Shown here: positions 1 to 59,113 of the stretch, one piece after another
Position numbering within the stretch: the first letter of the stretch is position 1
Layout: each line of letters starts with the position of its first letter
DNA from: Streptomyces humicola
GTDB taxonomy: Bacteria > Actinomycetota > Actinomycetes > Streptomycetales > Streptomycetaceae
Length of the DNA stretch: 64,000 nucleotides
Assembly: GCF_024436035.1 (NCBI RefSeq)
Contig: NZ_JANFNG010000025.1
Location: 1-64,000, forward strand
Direction of reading: 5' to 3'
Notes under the pieces: generated by a model
Databases searched by the model: none
What the model was told of the DNA's origin: nothing
What the model saw: only the letters and a program-made list of their open reading frames with translations
Translations under genes and position numbers: made by a program

Positions 1-59
1 AGGCCACGTGACGTTCGAGCGCCGAGGAGGCACCCCACAGCGGCACCGACCCCCCGACA

Positions 60-305
60 GCGCCGAGGCGCACGTGAGCCCGGGCACGGCACTCGCGCGA
101 AGGCGTACGTGATCGGGCCAGTCACGCCGGCGGGCCGGCGGCGCGCAGCGCCGAGGCGCACGTGACTGGGCTGGCCACCGGTGTGGACGCGCGCACGTGA
201 TCTGAGGTACGTGATCTGGCTGGTCACGGGGCCGGGAAAGCCGGCGCGCAGCGCCAGCCGCACGTGGCCAGACCAACCACGTCAGCGGGCCGGCGGCGCG
301 CAGCC
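60..305. repeat. Hairpin repeat cluster, locus 1
   Basis: This non-coding stretch lies 3' of pssA and is built from repeated blocks. Short hairpins of the form GTGA-N9-TCAC recur at about 109-125 and 211-226, with a looser version at 162-178. They alternate with a GC-rich spacer reading approximately GGCGCGCAGCGCC. CACGTG or TACGTG cores occur at least six times. The block at 109-170 aligns at about 85 percent with 14721-14780, and the 19-mer GCACGTGAGCCCGGGCACG at 70-88 is identical to 14703-14721. No coding frame here resembles a protein. A terminator, REP-like or protein-binding role is inferred only. Confidence 0.75.
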
Positions 306-310
306 GGGGG

Positions 311-1156
311 TCACCCCAAGCGCGATTGACGTGAGGTCGCTCGGCCGCGGATCGCGTTCACGCGACGGAACGTCGCGAAGAGCGGAATCACGGCGGCCGC
401 GACGACCTGCAGCGCCGCCCCCGTCTGCAGCAGCGCCGCCCCGCCCGGCACCCCCACCGCCCACGCGGACAGGCACCCCATGCTGATGAAGATCCAGCAC
501 AGCGTGGCGACCGCCAGCCGCCCCCGCGGCTTGGGGTACTCGACGCGGCTGACCATGAGCCACGCCACGCCCCCGATGATCGCCAGCGTCGGCAGGAACG
601 GCAGCTGAAGCAGGACCGCGGAGACGATGGTCAGCGCGCCCATCGGGCTCGGCATGCCCTGGAAGATCCCGTCCCGGACTGTGACGCAGGAGAATCTCGC
701 GAGCCGCAGCACCACGGCGAGCACGACCACGACCCCCGCGACGGCGGAGATGTTCTTGTGGCCGTCGTCGGCGACCATGCCCCAGACGACGACGAAGTAC
801 GCGGGGGCGAGGCCGAAGCTGATCAGGTCGGAGAGGTTGTCGAGCTCGGCGCCCATCGCTGAGCTGCGCAGCTTGCGGGCGACGAGGCCGTCGAAGAGGT
901 CGAAGACCGAGGCGAGCAGCATGAGCATGACCGCCGTCGCCGCACTGTGCCGGGTCATGCCGCCGTCGGTCTGGCCCATGAGGTGGGGGACCAGGACGCC
1001 GGTGGTGGTGAAGTAGACCGCCATGAAGCCGCACGTGGCGTTGGACAGCGTGAGGGTGTCCGCTATCGACAGCCGCGTCGAGACGGGCATGTCGGCGGTG
1101 TCCTCTCCGTCGGCCCAGGAAGTAGGTGCGTCCGTGTCGGGGTCAATCACGGTCAA
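311..1156 (-). CDS. pssA: CDP-diacylglycerol--serine O-phosphatidyltransferase
   Basis: This 281-residue membrane enzyme condenses CDP-diacylglycerol with L-serine to give phosphatidylserine. The CDP-alcohol phosphatidyltransferase signature is clear at residues 89-110, with D89, G90, A93, R94, G102, D106 and D110. Hydrophobic segments follow across the rest of the protein, as expected for the family. The first start is a TTG at 1156, and GTG at 1150 is an alternative two codons in. The gene overlaps the 3' end of psd by 14 bases, so the two should be translated together. Synthase and decarboxylase are the last two steps of phosphatidylethanolamine synthesis. Confidence 0.93.
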   Translation of the reverse strand: MTVIDPDTDAPTSWADGEDTADMPVSTRLSIADTLTLSNATCGFMAVYFTTTGVLVPHLMGQTDGGMTRHSAATAVMLMLLASVFDLFDGLVARKLRSSAMGAELDNLSDLISFGLAPAYFVVVWGMVADDGHKNISAVAGVVVVLAVVLRLARFSCVTVRDGIFQGMPSPMGALTIVSAVLLQLPFLPTLAIIGGVAWLMVSRVEYPKPRGRLAVATLCWIFISMGCLSAWAVGVPGGAALLQTGAALQVVAAAVIPLFATFRRVNAIRGRATSRQSRLG

Positions 1157-3698: not shown

Positions 3699-5696
3699 TC
3701 ACGCCTCCAGCTTGTTCGACCGGCGGATCTCGTCCACGATCCGGCCGATCATCCCGGTGATATCGAAGTCCTTCGCAGTGAAGACGGCAGCGACGCCCTC
3801 CCCGCGGAGCGCCTCGGCGTCCGCGGTCGGGATGATGCCACCGACGATCACCGGCACATCGTCCACCCCGGCGCGCCGCAGCCGCCGCAGGACATCCGGG
3901 ACGAGTTCGAGATGTGAGCCCGACAGGATGGACAGGCCCACACAGTGCACGTCCTCGGCGACGGCCGCCGCGACGATCTGCTCAGGGGTGAGCCTGATGC
4001 CCTGGTAGACGACCTCGAAGCCGGCGTCGCGGGCGCGCACGGCGATCTGCTCCGCGCCGTTGGAGTGGCCGTCGAGCCCCGGCTTGCCAACGAGCAGCCG
4101 CAGCTTGCCGACGCCCAGCCCCTCGGCGGTGGCGGCCACCTTGGCGCGAACGGCGGCAAGCGCGGTGCCCTCCTCGGCGGTGACCGCGACCGGCGCGCTG
4201 CTCACGCCCGTCGGGGCGCGGAACTCGCCGAAGACGTCGCGCAGCGCGAAGGCCCACTCCCCGGTGGTGACACCGGCACGGGCGCACTCCAGCGTCGCCT
4301 CCATGAGGTTGGCGTCGGTGGTCGCCGCGGCCTTCAGCGCCTCGATGGCGGCCTTCACCCGCGGCTCGTCGCGCTCGGCGCGCCACCGGTCGAGCGCCTC
4401 GACGACGCGCGCCTCGCCCGCCGGGTCGACGGTGTGGATCGCGGTGTCGAGGTCGGCGGTGAGCGGGCTGGGCTCGGTGGACTCGTAGCAGTTGACGCCG
4501 ATGACCTTGTCCTCGCCGGACTCGATCCGGGCCCGGCGCAGCGCGTGCGAGGCGACCAGCTGGGACTTGAGGTACCCCGACTCGACGGCCGGGATGGCCC
4601 CGCCCATCTCCAGCACCCGCTCGATCTCGGCCATCGCCTCGGTGGCGATCGCGTCGGTCCGCGCCTCGATGACATGGCTGCCGCGGAAGATGTCCTCGTA
4701 CTCCAGCAGATCGCTCTCGTGCGCGAGTACCTGCTGGATGCGCAGGCTCCACTGCTGGTCCCACGGGCGGGGCAGGCCCAGCGCCTCGTTCCAGGCGGGC
4801 AGTTGGACGGCGCGGGCGCGCGCGTCCTTGCTGAGCGTGACGGCGAGCATCTCCAACACGATGCGCTGGACGTTGTTCTCCGGCTGGGCCTCGGTCAATC
4901 CGAGCGAGTTGACCTGGACGCCGTAGCGGAACCTGCGGTGTTTGGGGTCCCGGATGCCGTAGCGCTCCTGGGTGATGGTGTCCCAGAGGCGGGCGAAGGC
5001 CCGCATCTTGCACATCTCCTCGATGAAGCGCACGCCCGCGTTGACGAAGAACGAGATGCGCCCGACGACATCACCCTTGCGATCCTCCGGCACCTGGCCG
5101 GATGCGAACACCGCGTCGAGCACGGCGATCGCGGTGGACATCGCGTAGGCGATCTCCTGGACGGGGGTGGCGCCCGCTTCCTGCAGGTGGTAGCTGCAGA
5201 TGTTGATCGGGTTCCACTTGGGGATGTGGTTCACCGTGTAGGTGATCATGTCGGTCGTCAGGCGCAGCGAGGGGACGGGCGGGAAGACGTGCGTCCCGCG
5301 CGACAGGTACTCCTTGACGATGTCGTTCTGCGTCGTGCCCTGCAGCTTGGTGACGTCCCCGCCCTGCTCCTCGGCGACCACCTGATAGAGCGCCAGCAGC
5401 CACATGGCCGTGGCGTTGATGGTCATCGAGGTGTTCATCTGCTCCAGCGGGATGTCGTGGAACAGCCGCCGCATGTCGCCGAGATGGGCGATCGGGACCC
5501 CGACCCGGCCGACCTCGCCGCGGGCGAGGACGTGGTCGGGGTCGTAGCCGGTCTGGGTCGGCAGGTCGAACGCGACCGAGAGGCCCGTCTGGCCCTTGGC
5601 GAGGTTGCGCCGGTAGAGGGCGTTGGACTCGTCCGCCGAGGTGTGGCCGGCGTACGTACGCATCAGCCAGGGGCGGTCCCTGTGCCGCTCGGCCAT
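3699..5696 (-). CDS. ecm: Ethylmalonyl-CoA mutase, B12-dependent
   Basis: This 665-residue single-chain mutase has the substrate-binding (beta/alpha)8 domain first, with DLPTQTGYDPDH near the N-terminus. A C-terminal cobalamin domain follows, with the DGHSNG form of DxHxxG (cobalt-ligand His about 544), then GLSILSGSH and VIVGGIIP. A one-chain mutase of this size next to crotonyl-CoA carboxylase/reductase is typical of MeaA/Ecm, which interconverts ethylmalonyl-CoA and methylsuccinyl-CoA. ATG 5696 overlaps the ccr stop by one base (TGATG). The same frame stays open upstream through ccr, but that extension is antiphase shadow and was not used. Confidence 0.92.
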   Translation of the reverse strand: MAERHRDRPWLMRTYAGHTSADESNALYRRNLAKGQTGLSVAFDLPTQTGYDPDHVLARGEVGRVGVPIAHLGDMRRLFHDIPLEQMNTSMTINATAMWLLALYQVVAEEQGGDVTKLQGTTQNDIVKEYLSRGTHVFPPVPSLRLTTDMITYTVNHIPKWNPINICSYHLQEAGATPVQEIAYAMSTAIAVLDAVFASGQVPEDRKGDVVGRISFFVNAGVRFIEEMCKMRAFARLWDTITQERYGIRDPKHRRFRYGVQVNSLGLTEAQPENNVQRIVLEMLAVTLSKDARARAVQLPAWNEALGLPRPWDQQWSLRIQQVLAHESDLLEYEDIFRGSHVIEARTDAIATEAMAEIERVLEMGGAIPAVESGYLKSQLVASHALRRARIESGEDKVIGVNCYESTEPSPLTADLDTAIHTVDPAGEARVVEALDRWRAERDEPRVKAAIEALKAAATTDANLMEATLECARAGVTTGEWAFALRDVFGEFRAPTGVSSAPVAVTAEEGTALAAVRAKVAATAEGLGVGKLRLLVGKPGLDGHSNGAEQIAVRARDAGFEVVYQGIRLTPEQIVAAAVAEDVHCVGLSILSGSHLELVPDVLRRLRRAGVDDVPVIVGGIIPTADAEALRGEGVAAVFTAKDFDITGMIGRIVDEIRRSNKLEA

Positions 5697-12135: not shown

Positions 12136-14541
12136 GTGGGCGGTACCGCACAGCTGGAGCAACCTGCGCTGCCCCAGGAGACCACCGCGATCTCCGACGT
12201 CACGGAGCTGTCCAAGACCCTGGTCAGCCACGAGGTCACCGAAGAGCTCCCGCCGGTCGCCACGCTCGGCCCCCGCCGGGTGCGCACCGTCTTCGCCGGC
12301 CTGATGCTCGCACTGCTCCTCGCCGCCCTCGACCAGACGATCGTCGCGACCGCGCTCCCCAAGGTCGTCGGCGAACTCCACGGCCTGGACCGGATGTCGT
12401 GGGTGGTCACCGCCTACCTGCTCGCCTCCACCGTCGGACTGCCCCTCTACGGCAAACTCGGCGACCTGCTCGGCCGCAAGGCCGTCTTCGAGTTCGCGAT
12501 CGTCACCTTCGTCATCGGCTCCGCACTCGCCGGCTGGTCGCACACGATGGACGAACTCATCGTCTTCCGCGGGCTCCAGGGCCTCGGCGGCGGAGGACTG
12601 ATCACCGGCGTGCAGGCGATCATCGCCGACATCGTCCCGCCGCGCGAGCGAGGCCGCTACATGGGCCTGATCGGCGCCGGCTTCGGACTCGCCTCGATCG
12701 CAGGACCACTGCTCGGCGGCTACCTCACCGACCACGTCTCATGGCGCTGGTGCTTCTACGTCAATGTGCCGTTCGGCCTCGCCACCCTGCTCGTCGTCGC
12801 CACCGTCCTCCACCTGCCCAAGCCCGCACACCGCGCCCGAGTCGACGTCCTCGGCTGCCTCCTCCTCGCAGGCGCGTCAACCTGCCTGGTCCTGCTCAGC
12901 ACCTGGGGCGGCACGCGCTACGCCTGGCGCTCGCACATCATCCTCGGCCTCGGCGCGGGTGCCCTCGCCTGCACCGCCCTCTTCCTCCTCGTCGAACGGT
13001 TCGCCGTCGAACCGGTCATCCCGCTGCGCCTCTTCCGCGACGGCATCTTCACCGTCTCCGGGATCACCGGCGCCGTGGTCGGCGTCGCCCTCTTCGGCGC
13101 AGCGAGCTACCTCCCCACCTTCCTGCAGATGGTCGACGGTGCCTCCGCCACCGAATCCGGTCTGCAGATGCTGCCGATGGTCGGCGGTGTGGTCCTCGCC
13201 TCCACGGCCGCCGGGCAGTTGACCAGCCGCACCGGACGCTACAAGGCCTATCCGGTCATCGGCTGCGCGCTGGCCGCGGCCGGCCTCTGGTTGCTCTCCC
13301 GCCTCGGGCCCGGCACCACCCGCCCCGTGTACAGCGTATGGATGGCCGTCCTCGGCATCGGCGTCGGCCTCGCGCTCCCGGTCCTCGTCCTGGCCGTGCA
13401 GAACACCGTGCGCCCGGCCGACCTCGGCGTCGCAACAGCCGCCACCAACTACTTCCGCCAGATCGGCGGCTCCCTCGGCGCGGCCGTCTTCGGCACGCTC
13501 CTCGCCCACCGCCTCACCACGGCACTGCCGCACTCGGCAGGCCTGCCGAACCTCGAATCGATCACCCCTGCGATCGTCCGCGCCCTGCCCGCACCACTGC
13601 GTGACTCCTATGTGCACGCCTACGCGGCCGCCATGCCGCGCATCTTCCTCTACCTGGTGCCGGTGCTCGGCCTCGGCTTCCTGACCGCCTTCCTGCTCAA
13701 GGAGAAACCTCTGATGACCGAGCACGGCTCCGACACGCCCCCGTACGGATTCGACGCGGTCATCCCGTCGGCGCGCACCCCCGCCGGTACGGGCGTGCCC
13801 GTCTGCGGAACGGTCCAGCACGCCGACGGCACGCGGGTGCCGCGCGCCGCGCTCACCCTCATCGACGCCTCCGGACGGCAGGTGGGCCGCGGCGCGACCG
13901 GAGAGGACGGGCGCTACGCCCTGAGCACGCCGGGCAGTGGCGCCTACGTCCTGATCGCGGCGGCGGGCGGCCACCAGCCGCAGGCCGTCAGCGTCACGGT
14001 CGGCGACCGTCCCGTCGACCTCGACGTGGTCCTCGGCGGCGCGGGGCGCCTGACCGGCGTGGTGGTGACCGCCGACGGCTCGCCGGTACGGGACGCGGTG
14101 GTGACGCTGACCGACGTACGTGGCGAGGTGGTCGCGAGCACACGCACGGGGCGCGAGGGCGGCTATGTGCTGGGTGACCTCGTGGCGGGTGAGTACACGC
14201 TGGCGGCGAACGCACCGGCGTACCGGCCCGCGGCGCTGCCGGTCTCCGTCCAGGCGGCGCGGGAGACGCGGCAGGACGTGGAACTGGCGGGCGGGGCGGT
14301 GCTGCGCGGTGTCGTGCGCGCCCCCGCGGGCCGGCCTGTCGAGGACGCGAGGGTCACCCTCCTGGACGCGGCGGGCAATGTCGTCGACTCGGTGACGACG
14401 GGAGCGGACGGGGTCTTCCGCTTCGTCGACCTCGCGGCGGGCTCCTACACGGTGATCGCAACGGGGTACCCGCCGGTGGCCACGGTCTTGCGTGTCGAGG
14501 GCGGGGGGCGCACGGAACGGGACATCCAACTCGGCACGTGA
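12136..14541 (+). CDS. DHA2-family MFS exporter with three C-terminal beta-sandwich repeats
   Basis: This 801-residue protein has a 14-helix EmrB/QacA-type transporter over about residues 50-530. Marks are [13 protein letters not shown] in helix 1, motif [11 protein letters not shown] and motif C AGPLLGG. Proton-driven drug or metabolite export is the family role. Residues 553-801 add three repeats of about 83 residues at 553-635, 636-720 and 721-801. Each has the carboxypeptidase-regulatory-like pattern of G-x-V ... T-G-x-D/E-G-x-Y/F ... G-x-Y. GTG 12136 follows GAGGGGAGC. The repeats are unusual on an MFS protein, and with 14 helices they would be predicted to face the cytoplasm. Confidence 0.9.
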
Positions 14542-14634
14542 CGGGACGCTGCGCTGGGTGCGGTACGTCTATTCGCACGGGTGCGTGACACTGCGGCTTG
14601 CGTGGGGTGTTTTTCCCGCCGCCCGCCCGTTGCC

Positions 14635-14794
14635 GTGATCGGGTGGGTCACGTGGGCGCTGCGTGGGTGGGTGGGGTCGGTGCCGCGCGCACGTGAGCCC
14701 AGGCACGTGAGCCCGGGCACGTGACCGGACCAGTCACGCCAATGGGCCAGCGGCGCGCAGCGCCAGGCGCAGGTGATTCGGCCAGTCACGGTGA
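14635..14794. repeat. Hairpin repeat cluster, locus 2
   Basis: This is a second copy of the repeat family at 60-305, placed between the convergent 3' ends of the MFS gene and the following membrane-protein gene. GTGA-N-TCAC hairpins occur at 14635-14650, 14721-14735 and 14773-14788. The spacer GGCGCGCAGCGCC and CACGTGA cores are also present. The segment 14721-14780 matches 109-170 closely, and 14703-14721 is identical to 70-88. The position at gene 3' ends suggests a terminator or attenuator role, but no function is shown. Confidence 0.75.
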
Positions 14795-14802
14795 CGAGAA
14801 AA

Positions 14803-16443
14803 TCACCCGCACGGGGTGCCGCGGGGGAGGGTGTATCTACTGCCGATGGTGAACACGCCCGCGTCGTGAGCGCGGAGCCGGGTCCACGCGCCGGCCTGTT
14901 CCAGGCAGCCCGTGCCGTGGAGAACACCCAACCACGGCGACCACGCCACCCGTACAAGAAACGACCCCGCCTGCGGTACGCGCATCGACAGCTCGCCCTG
15001 CCCCGCCCGGATCGCCGTCGACGGCGCCGACGTCAACGGCACGGCGTCCGTGACCGCGTACACGCGCCAGTGCGCGTCACCCCAGACCGGCCGCAGCCAC
15101 GTCTGTCCGGCCGCCACTATCCGCGCCTCCGCGACCGCCGCGTCGTCGGGTGCCGCGTCCGGAAGCACTACGTAGGACACCGCCCACGTCCGCAACCATG
15201 CGTGATACGTCGCGGCCGTGATCTTGCCGTCGTAGAAGACCGGGTTGCGCTCGACGTCGAGCTGGCGGTTCCAGCCTCGCGCGAGATTGACGTAGGGACT
15301 CAGGCCGGCCGACTCCCAGTGGGTCCTGGCGGCCACCACTTCGACGCGGTCCCGGTCGGCGCCGAGCCTCCCCAACTCGGCGATCAGCGGCTTCGCGTAC
15401 GTCGACCACCCTGCCGCGGGCGCCGTGCTCACCAGATCCTGCACCGGCTTCACGACCTGCCACCCGGCGGCGAAGACGAACGCGAGCCACAGCGCGAGCG
15501 CCCGCCGTCCACGAGCACCCTCCATCAGCGCCGCCAGCAGCACCGTCGCGGCGAACAGCAACGACAGCCGCTCCACGTTGCTGCCGATGGGCGACGGGAT
15601 CAAGAGCGTGAGCAGGTCGCCGGCGATGTACACCCACGCCCCCGCCCGCACCGCCCGCCACGACGGGGGAGCCCACAGCGCGACCGGCAGGCCCGTCGCC
15701 ACCACGAGTGCCGCGCCGCCCACCGAAAACGGCTGCACCCCGTAGAAGGGGAAGAGCAGCGTGATGATCCCGACCACCAGCGGCGGCGCGGTGAGCAGCG
15801 CGAGCGAGTCCCGGCGACGCCCCGTCAGGAACAGACCCGCACCCGCGACCAGCAGGAACAACCCGGCCACCGGGCTGGAGCCGGTGGCCACCGCCCCCAG
15901 CAGGAAGGCCGCTCCGTCGCGCACCGCACGCGGACCGAAGCTCTCGTACACCATCAGCGTCGCGGTGAGGCCGAACAGCACGCCGATGCTGAAGGTGATA
16001 CGCCCCGACGCGGTGTCCCCGGAGAGCGCAACCGCCCCGCAGACCGCGGGAAGCAGGGGACGGGCCAGACCCGAGCGCATCAGGAGACGCGCAAGCACCG
16101 CGGCGGAGAGGGTGCCGGTGATGACCGCCGTGGTGCGTACTCCCAGCCACGCCATCAGATAGGGGGTGAGCGCGCTGTAGGAGATGGGGTGCATCCCGCC
16201 GTACCACGACAGGTTGTACGCCGAACCGGGGTGCGCGCCGGTGAATTCGGCCCAGGCGTACTGCGCTGCCATGTCGCCGCCGTCGGTGGCGAGGAACCCC
16301 GCCCACAGCAGGTGCAGTACGGCGGCGACGAGGACCGCCGCGACCACGGGGTGACGCAGCGGGCGCAGCCAGGACAGCGGCCGCGGGACGACCGGTGACG
16401 GTGTCAGGAATGCGGCGTGAGGGGATGGTTCGAGGGTGTTCAT
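14803..16443 (-). CDS. Polytopic membrane protein of unknown function
   Basis: This 546-residue protein has a short cytoplasmic N-terminus and a first membrane segment at about 32-50. About ten further hydrophobic segments follow up to residue 340, then a soluble C-terminal region of about 200 residues. A loop after helix 1 reads DGGDMAAQYAWAEF, an acidic motif like those in the first external loop of GT-C-type membrane glycosyltransferases. I do not recognise the family, and GT-C membership is only a suggestion. ATG 16443 is chosen because the frame upstream is unrelated to any membrane protein. It is divergent from the PP2C regulator gene. Confidence 0.72.
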   Translation of the reverse strand: MNTLEPSPHAAFLTPSPVVPRPLSWLRPLRHPVVAAVLVAAVLHLLWAGFLATDGGDMAAQYAWAEFTGAHPGSAYNLSWYGGMHPISYSALTPYLMAWLGVRTTAVITGTLSAAVLARLLMRSGLARPLLPAVCGAVALSGDTASGRITFSIGVLFGLTATLMVYESFGPRAVRDGAAFLLGAVATGSSPVAGLFLLVAGAGLFLTGRRRDSLALLTAPPLVVGIITLLFPFYGVQPFSVGGAALVVATGLPVALWAPPSWRAVRAGAWVYIAGDLLTLLIPSPIGSNVERLSLLFAATVLLAALMEGARGRRALALWLAFVFAAGWQVVKPVQDLVSTAPAAGWSTYAKPLIAELGRLGADRDRVEVVAARTHWESAGLSPYVNLARGWNRQLDVERNPVFYDGKITAATYHAWLRTWAVSYVVLPDAAPDDAAVAEARIVAAGQTWLRPVWGDAHWRVYAVTDAVPLTSAPSTAIRAGQGELSMRVPQAGSFLVRVAWSPWLGVLHGTGCLEQAGAWTRLRAHDAGVFTIGSRYTLPRGTPCG

Positions 16444-16673
16444 GATGAATGATTCAGTTCTTCCCCTGATGCCGTACGGGGTACGGGACGCTAACACGTG
16501 ATCCTGGCGACCGCCCGTCGAGGGGCCGGCGCGCGGGCGTGCGCCGGATTGCGCCGTTGGGCCACATGGGGGACTGCCAGGGCCGTACCGTGGTAGTCGG
16601 TGCCGTAGATCTTGCGTCGGTCCTGGAGGCTGCCCCAAGAAGCGGCACGAGAGGGGAAGGAGACCGGCGGGTC

Positions 16674-58810: not shown

Positions 58811-58895
58811 GTCCGGGTGGCGGAATGGCAGACGCGCTAGCTTGAGGTGCTAGTGCCCTTTATCGGGCGTGGGGGTTCAAGTCCCCCTCCGGACA
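58811..58895 (+). tRNA. tRNA-Leu(GAG)
   Basis: This 85-base class II tRNA has acceptor stem GTCCGGG pairing with TCCGGAC. The anticodon loop CTTGAGG has anticodon GAG. A variable arm reads TGCCC-TTTATC-GGGCG and the T arm is GGGGGTTCAAGTCCCC. Discriminator A is at 58895. CCA is not encoded. Leu tRNA genes are frequent integration sites for actinomycete elements. Confidence 0.95.
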
Positions 58896-59113
58896 CATAC
58901 AGTATGCCCACCGGTGGTGTCGGCCTTGTCGGTCGGCACCATTCGCGTTTCGTGGTCGCAGGAGACGCTCCACACTGTTTCGCCAGGGCCGCGTCCATCA
59001 CAAGCGGACTGGGCGCGAGGACGAGTCCCGGGACTGGGCGCAGGGCCTCTTCGGGGAGGCAGGGCCTCTCCGGCGCCCTGATGGTGGCGCGTTACCTGGG
59101 CAGCCAAAGAGGC

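Follow-up and report, generated by a model that had tools for sequence, protein, structure and literature searches.

Two intergenic loci of Streptomyces humicola as the probable periphery of a non-coding hairpin repeat dispersed through Streptomyces and related genera

Background

REP elements and BIMEs are dispersed intergenic palindromes, present many times per genome at gene 3' ends, with a GTAG beside the palindrome and a RAYT (TnpA_REP) transposase. Integron attC sites are single-strand hairpins with unpaired bases and R and L boxes, and their integrase is IntI. Among chromosomal sites of other kinds, KOPS are 8-mers, and parS of Streptomyces has the core CACGTGA within the consensus GTTTCACGTGAAAC.

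We analysed a window of 64 kb, the first part of contig 17 (90 kb) in the draft genome of Streptomyces humicola (7.07 Mb in 78 contigs). An initial annotation had described a composite repeat shared by two non-coding loci of this window and had read it as a mobile or REP-like family at gene 3' ends or as clustered binding sites. The reading as a dispersed REP-like family beside gene 3' ends is supported, with one correction: the CACGTGA array that had been described is not the dispersed element, and the part that has spread is a hairpin unit of about 117 nt, whose start at window positions 1-54 is absent from that annotation. The hairpin unit is dispersed between genes across Streptomyces and relatives, with dozens of copies in some genomes.

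Results and discussion

A repeat shared by two loci of the window

The reported resemblance between the two loci was confirmed in its details. Within the window the 19-mer GCACGTGAGCCCGGGCACG has exactly two copies, at 70 and 14703 on the same strand, and the alignment of 109-170 with 14721-14780, previously put at about 85 percent, has 51 of 62 columns identical on recounting (82 %). The spacer common to both loci, GGCGCGCAGCGCC, is exact at 140 and 243 in locus 1 and at 14752 in locus 2. Of the nine GTGA-N9-TCAC motifs in the window five fall inside the two loci (at 109, 211, 14635, 14721 and 14773), while with any one of 21 other spacer lengths (3-8 and 10-24) the motif occurs 0-4 times in the window. 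Allowing at most one mismatch, GTGANNNNNCNNGTCAC matches the window 25 times compared to 8.1 ± 2.7 in shuffled sequence (shuffle maximum 15). The positions stand as well, locus 1 at the 3' flank of pssA and locus 2 in the convergent gap between 14541 and 14803. The features of the two loci are as follows.

1-54, minus strand: partial hairpin unit, 5' part (P1, P2 5' strand, TCCTCGG, start of the inner stem); cmsearch with model R1, 47.4 bits, E 1.3e-7
55-305, no strand: locus 1 flanking array with CACGTGA cores, GTGA-N9-TCAC 17-mers and GGCGCGCAGCGCC spacers
109-125, no strand: GTGA-N9-TCAC 17-mer, with a second at 211-227
140-152, plus strand: GGCGCGCAGCGCC spacer, also at 243-255
311-1156, minus strand: candidate pssA, 3' end facing the array; Pfam CDP-OH_P_transf, 6.6e-12
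12136-14541, plus strand: MFS transporter with C-terminal CarboxypepD_reg-like domains (Pfam), convergent gene left of locus 2
14600-14685, plus strand: locus 2 left-hand flank type, including the 17-mer 14635-14651 (side-by-side comparison)
14679-14685, plus strand: GGTGCCG, junction of the left flank with the right array, nothing between
14686-14794, no strand: locus 2 right-hand array: CACGTGA cores, two 17-mers (14721-14737, 14773-14789) and a spacer (14752-14764)
14803-16638, minus strand: ORF, the other convergent gene at locus 2, no Pfam match at 1e-5, start uncertain

The name pssA is plausible for 311-1156 because a phosphatidylserine decarboxylase gene adjoins this CDP-alcohol phosphatidyltransferase gene. 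By Pfam, several CarboxypepD_reg-like domains follow the transporter part of the MFS transporter. Elsewhere in the window R1 has a weak match at 59035-59086 (18.8 bits, E 0.11), near a tRNA at 58811-58895.

Locus 1 retains the hairpin, cut by the contig end. The cmsearch match at window 1-54 covers positions 1-54 of the R1 model and is truncated by the contig start; the end of contig C3 breaks at the identical base of the unit. At locus 2 (14600-14794) the same search of the window gave no R1 match. Its left flank type lies to the left of a hairpin pair in C33 and, inverted, to the right of one in C76. Since GGTGCCG in C33 stands immediately to the left of the hairpin pair and again within the right array, deletion is the simple reading of locus 2, which probably lost its hairpins between these direct repeats.

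Copies in the source genome

BLAST of 60-305 against the whole genome yielded the further copies that a repeat family predicts, with at least 25 places at E<=0.1 and at least 15 at E<1e-6 (query included, 40 of 187 candidates scored). Array copies lie mostly near contig ends in this draft genome. Among the ends met in our searches, hairpin or flank occurs at no fewer than 14 of 156, namely the ends of C1, C3, C15, C20, C26, C40, C44 and C46 and the starts of C5, C17, C32, C33, C46 and C78. The full anatomy is seen in the internal copies C33:5912-6253 and C76:221957-222302, where two units of about 117 nt face each other (-> <-) with arrays outside. This arrangement of two facing hairpins between flanks accounts for the copies near contig ends, and it is more likely that the repeats cause the assembly breaks than the reverse. 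At the end of C15 (L010) a poly-C tract directly follows the hairpin pair and is probably a sequencing or assembly artefact.

That poly-C run and the bias of own-genome copies to contig ends could suggest that the whole pattern is a product of assembly, or of chance similarity. Such an origin is refuted by the internal copies and by the strong covariation described below; many copies are also found in single-contig genomes, and we consider the probability negligible.

Anatomy and covariation of the hairpin unit

The unit spans about 105-127 bp and has two stems (an outer one and P2), an asymmetric internal loop and an inner hairpin that is variable but hardly changes in length. The internal loop is near-invariant, its two sides reading TCCTCGG and CTGCGGG, and a few variants occur; its constancy is partly built in, because most of the patterns and regular expressions that collected the units demanded these exact letters. 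An alignment of twenty units (seven of the source genome, 13 of other genomes) has internal gaps of at most 3 columns.

Around TCCTCGG and CTGCGGG the outer stem, P2 and inner stem covary. Across 46 sense matches to R1, a model whose structure was set by hand, 91.5 % of 916 cells are paired compared to 81.9 ± 0.6 % after shuffling, and 89 cells carry double changes compared to 30.1, a number reached by none of 500 shuffles. Double changes fall in 13 of 20 pairs (5.9 shuffled), and the covariation score is 0.233 compared to 0.078, with slid structures at 0.062 or below. An alignment of 75 rows gives the same picture, 18 of its rows being antisense duplicates of places already in. Both alignments were fitted to the model structure and thus lean towards the model. 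When no fitted alignment is used, the inner nine positions are 80 % paired (shuffled maximum 65 %) and P2 is 90 % paired compared to 81 %. Folded singly, four of five units are far stabler than their shuffles (z -3.1 to -5.7, -63 to -80 kcal/mol), while the fifth (L117) is no stabler than shuffles. Rfam has no family at the units, either in the window (gathering threshold) or at 8 loci (E up to 1).

Among stem mismatches G.T is not in excess over A.C, with 16 to 15 in P2 and 29 to 49 in P3 (from 103 distinct units; the stem filter passed 100 for P2 and 90 for P3). An RNA read from one strand would favour G.U pairs and none are in excess, so DNA, or both strands, fits better.

Distribution across genomes

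With 25 candidates scored in each genome, R1 matches occur in at least 22 genomes out of 147 of the order. We then counted two sequence patterns, subtypes A and B, in 391 genomes of the order, the tallies being made by eye. Thirteen genomes have at least 10 subtype A matches, with a maximum of 57 (G070) compared to at most 5 for the reversed control. A single subtype A match or more is found in 351 genomes; the pattern meets coding DNA by chance, so that counts below 10 are weak unless inspected and the counts include some chance matches. The source genome has 8 subtype A matches compared to 0 in the control, and all 8 are hairpin-like. For subtype B, 57 genomes have at least 5 matches, with a maximum of 36 (G144) and at most 2 in the reversed control. 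Most of the 391 genomes are under the threshold for both subtypes.

In a collection of contigs a conserved subtype A pattern found 20 loci, all Streptomyces, including S. xanthophaeus, A0642, A0958 and or43. A 27-letter pattern of the own-genome core had 0 matches in this collection, which may exclude the source genome. Plasmids gave no match to one 117-nt unit or to the own-genome composite element, phages none to one unit pair, and viral contigs none to one pattern.

Genomic context and flanking arrays

Best model matches and their neighbours in six genomes gave 96 units in 82 clusters, of which 69 are single, 12 are pairs and one has three units. All 12 pairs are arranged -> <-. No predicted gene is overlapped by 74 of the 82 clusters, and the other 8 overlap a heuristic gene call. 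Both neighbours were called for 72 clusters (28 convergent, 38 codirectional and 6 divergent), placing 66 of 72 beside a gene 3' end. A coding chance match, L205 322-391, was dropped from the context, inner-stem, mismatch and 60-nt flank counts and kept in the 35-nt flank count and in the T-tract and GTAG counts.

The flanks of units in other genomes are also repeat-rich, with different sequences. With flanks cut 35 nt outside the loop motifs, a flank 15-mer recurs at another locus of the same genome for 110 of 122 loci, compared to 16 of 122 for controls about 1 kb away; with a 60 nt cut the number is 103 of 122. Compared with equally many loci of other genomes, 49 loci (35 nt) and 63 loci (60 nt) share a 15-mer. 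At the 60 nt cut this cross-genome sharing amounts to 54 of 58 loci in four subtype B genomes (G179, G183, G105 and G302) and to 9 of 64 in the source genome and three subtype A genomes, so that flanking arrays are lineage-specific. The arrays of the four subtype B genomes may form a repeat family of their own.

The CACGTGA array itself has no match in one other genome of the source's genus. Sixty other relatives gave only short matches, in at least 34 of the 60 and with a best E of 1.7e-5 (12 candidates scored per genome); being short and marginal, these were rejected as homologues. Good array copies in related genomes, which a dispersed family of arrays would have, were thus not found outside the source genome, and the array behaves as a lineage-specific flank that is the source genome's own as far as tested.

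The initial annotation's second reading, clustered binding sites, would make the CACGTGA arrays targets of a regulator or of ParB. Repeated 17-bp near-palindromes with the spacer fixed at 9 are what such sites might look like. Nevertheless, the arrays sit at gene 3' ends tied to hairpins, other repeats take that place elsewhere, and the best array match to the parS consensus has 5 of 14 positions mismatched, on which ground parS was rejected. We regard clustered binding sites as very improbable.

A second dispersed Streptomyces motif was observed in 3' intergenic sites (L290, L295, L297, L299 and L112), including sites where the hairpin unit is absent. It consists of CAGCCCGTCCGGCG and a GAGGAC shortly after it; often a GGGGGCGCAGCCCCC-type hairpin comes next.

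Turnover in related regions

Two unit-bearing sites of G179 were compared with 12 related regions, of which one (L300) does not cover site 2. At site 2, G432 has a unit of the same kind, and G405 has a unit whose P2 and inner stem differ in sequence with pairing preserved; a regular expression with the exact loop motifs found no unit in the 9 other covering regions. At site 1 only the left arm remains in G432, where loss of the unit by deletion is seen. In the 12 regions we saw no insertion event with sharp edges or a duplicated target; the empty sites among them are too diverged, and the clearest case of absence is what a deletion left behind. In G440 (L292 reverse complement, 4455-5194) the site of a G179 hairpin unit is taken up by GGCGGCTTC(A/G)AGCGGCC-type units repeated in a long tandem array.

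Orientation relative to the origin

Taking dnaA as the marker of oriC, we scored the orientation of subtype B units in seven genomes. Of 90 units, 65 point away from dnaA (p 3e-5), a pooled value that is too small because relatives may have inherited sites in common. The counts with and against this direction are 16:3 in G105, 15:5 in G302, 10:3 in G111, 8:3 in G090, 5:1 in G398, 8:5 in G139 and 3:5 in G306, and only G105 and G302 fall individually below p 0.05. One G105 match (6927912), which overlaps a predicted gene and is not hairpin-like, was dropped from the count. Gene direction does not explain the polarity in these two genomes: gene bases near the units run with the fork for 51 % (G105) and 41 % (G302), about even, and in codirectional contexts units oppose the genes 15 times and follow them 6 times. 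The gene-direction test leaves out one G302 unit overlapping a predicted gene, giving 14:5 instead of 15:5. As the stems are self-complementary, direction would be carried only by the asymmetric loop. For subtype A the polarity is absent or reversed, with 10 units with and 15 against in G070 and 5:13 in G289, where 8 orientations were inferred from counts (ten places listed).

One explanation for a stable hairpin beside gene 3' ends is that it works in the transcript, as a terminator lacking a U-tract (I-shaped) or as a barrier to RNA decay, for convergent and codirectional genes, and has spread because it is useful. This is the main rival to a DNA-level element, and we grant it a modest probability. 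The placement of 66 of 72 clusters and the folding of four of five single units agree with it, and parts of two Term-seq studies (PMC8269248, PMC8914203) report 3' ends in S. clavuligerus and S. griseus that are structured and have no U-tracts. Termination, however, needs neither a near-invariant loop nor a near-constant length, neither strand has a G.U excess, and the orientation of subtype B tracks replication instead of genes. Conventional T-tract (L-shaped) terminators are ruled out by count: at least four T in 8 nt, within 60 nt, follow 7 units in sense and 3 in antisense out of 139, compared to 31 of 134 control pieces. This lack counts against U-tract terminators only.

The same polarity could alternatively mean that the units are KOPS- or AIMS-like sites of chromosome architecture, or replication-coupled sites, kept for their orientation. 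The subtype B figures, above all those of G105 and G302 with their even gene surroundings, would fit. We nonetheless think it improbable, given the patchy occurrence over 391 genomes, the missing or reversed polarity of subtype A and a unit that is long, intergenic and unlike KOPS.

A proposed REP-like family acting at the DNA level

The reading that we put forward is a REP-like dispersed hairpin family that would act at the DNA level via a putative recognition protein, and we hold it with about as much confidence as doubt. The hairpin would form in single-stranded DNA, and its loop would be read by a putative protein other than the Y1/RAYT transposase of REPs. Copies may have spread into tolerated 3' intergenic sites, where hairpins were presumably lost later through deletion. 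We also entertain, tentatively and as rather unlikely in its entirety, a bolder form: a genus-wide Streptomyces element of single-stranded DNA, inserted or kept in fixed orientation to the fork, whose loop would be read by a RAYT-unrelated protein, whose inner stem would serve as a lineage-specific address and to which lineages would add satellite-like flanks.

If the DNA-level reading is true, a well-studied genus carries up to dozens of dispersed hairpins per genome that are undescribed in the literature searched. It would help explain assembly breaks and the fast turnover of 3' intergenic regions, and would set the question which protein reads the TCCTCGG/CTGCGGG loop. Replication strand polarity makes single-strand recognition testable.

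We found no description of the unit in print within a coverage that reached parts of texts, PMC4681348 and PMC1590033 included, and that has most subscription-journal papers outside it. The portion of a stem-loop survey that was covered (PMC2267715) nowhere contains 'streptomyc', and little can therefore be concluded from its silence; the covered portions of RepRanger (PMC12306157) and of a hairpin survey (PMC13155455) are likewise silent on Streptomyces and carry little weight.

Comparison with known systems

In common with REP and BIME elements the units are dispersed intergenic palindromes in many copies, some as inverted pairs, at 3' ends and with a conserved irregularity in the stem. They differ in being several times longer and in having inner stems that vary freely. 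Of 138 units only 37 have a GTAG anywhere within 50 nt on the 5' side, and the consensus has none. Ten of 11 unit-bearing genomes tested (G000, G070, G164, G183, G179, G167, G094, G114, G032 and G066), the source genome among them, lack the Y1_Tnp domain (PF01797), which rejects a RAYT/Y1 transposase as common driver; in the eleventh, G104, a single match passes the cut-off (34.4 bits) and is interrupted by a stop. Y1_Tnp is present in two of five other genomes tested. Because the Y1 transposase and GTAG features are missing, we do not file the unit under REP/BIME.

MITEs are likewise short, non-coding and multi-copy with an inverted-repeat structure. Here, by contrast, the whole unit is the hairpin, and neither defined terminal repeats nor a target duplication is seen among the 12 related regions. 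I-shaped (U-less) terminators resemble the unit as stable 3'-end hairpins lacking a U-tract; the unit differs from them in its sequence-conserved loop, near-constant length, lack of G.U preference and, for subtype B, replication polarity. With integron attC sites it has in common a hairpin with unpaired bases in which stem sequence varies while recognition features stay fixed, except that attC sites form cassette arrays and the units described here are dispersed over the chromosome, alone or in pairs.
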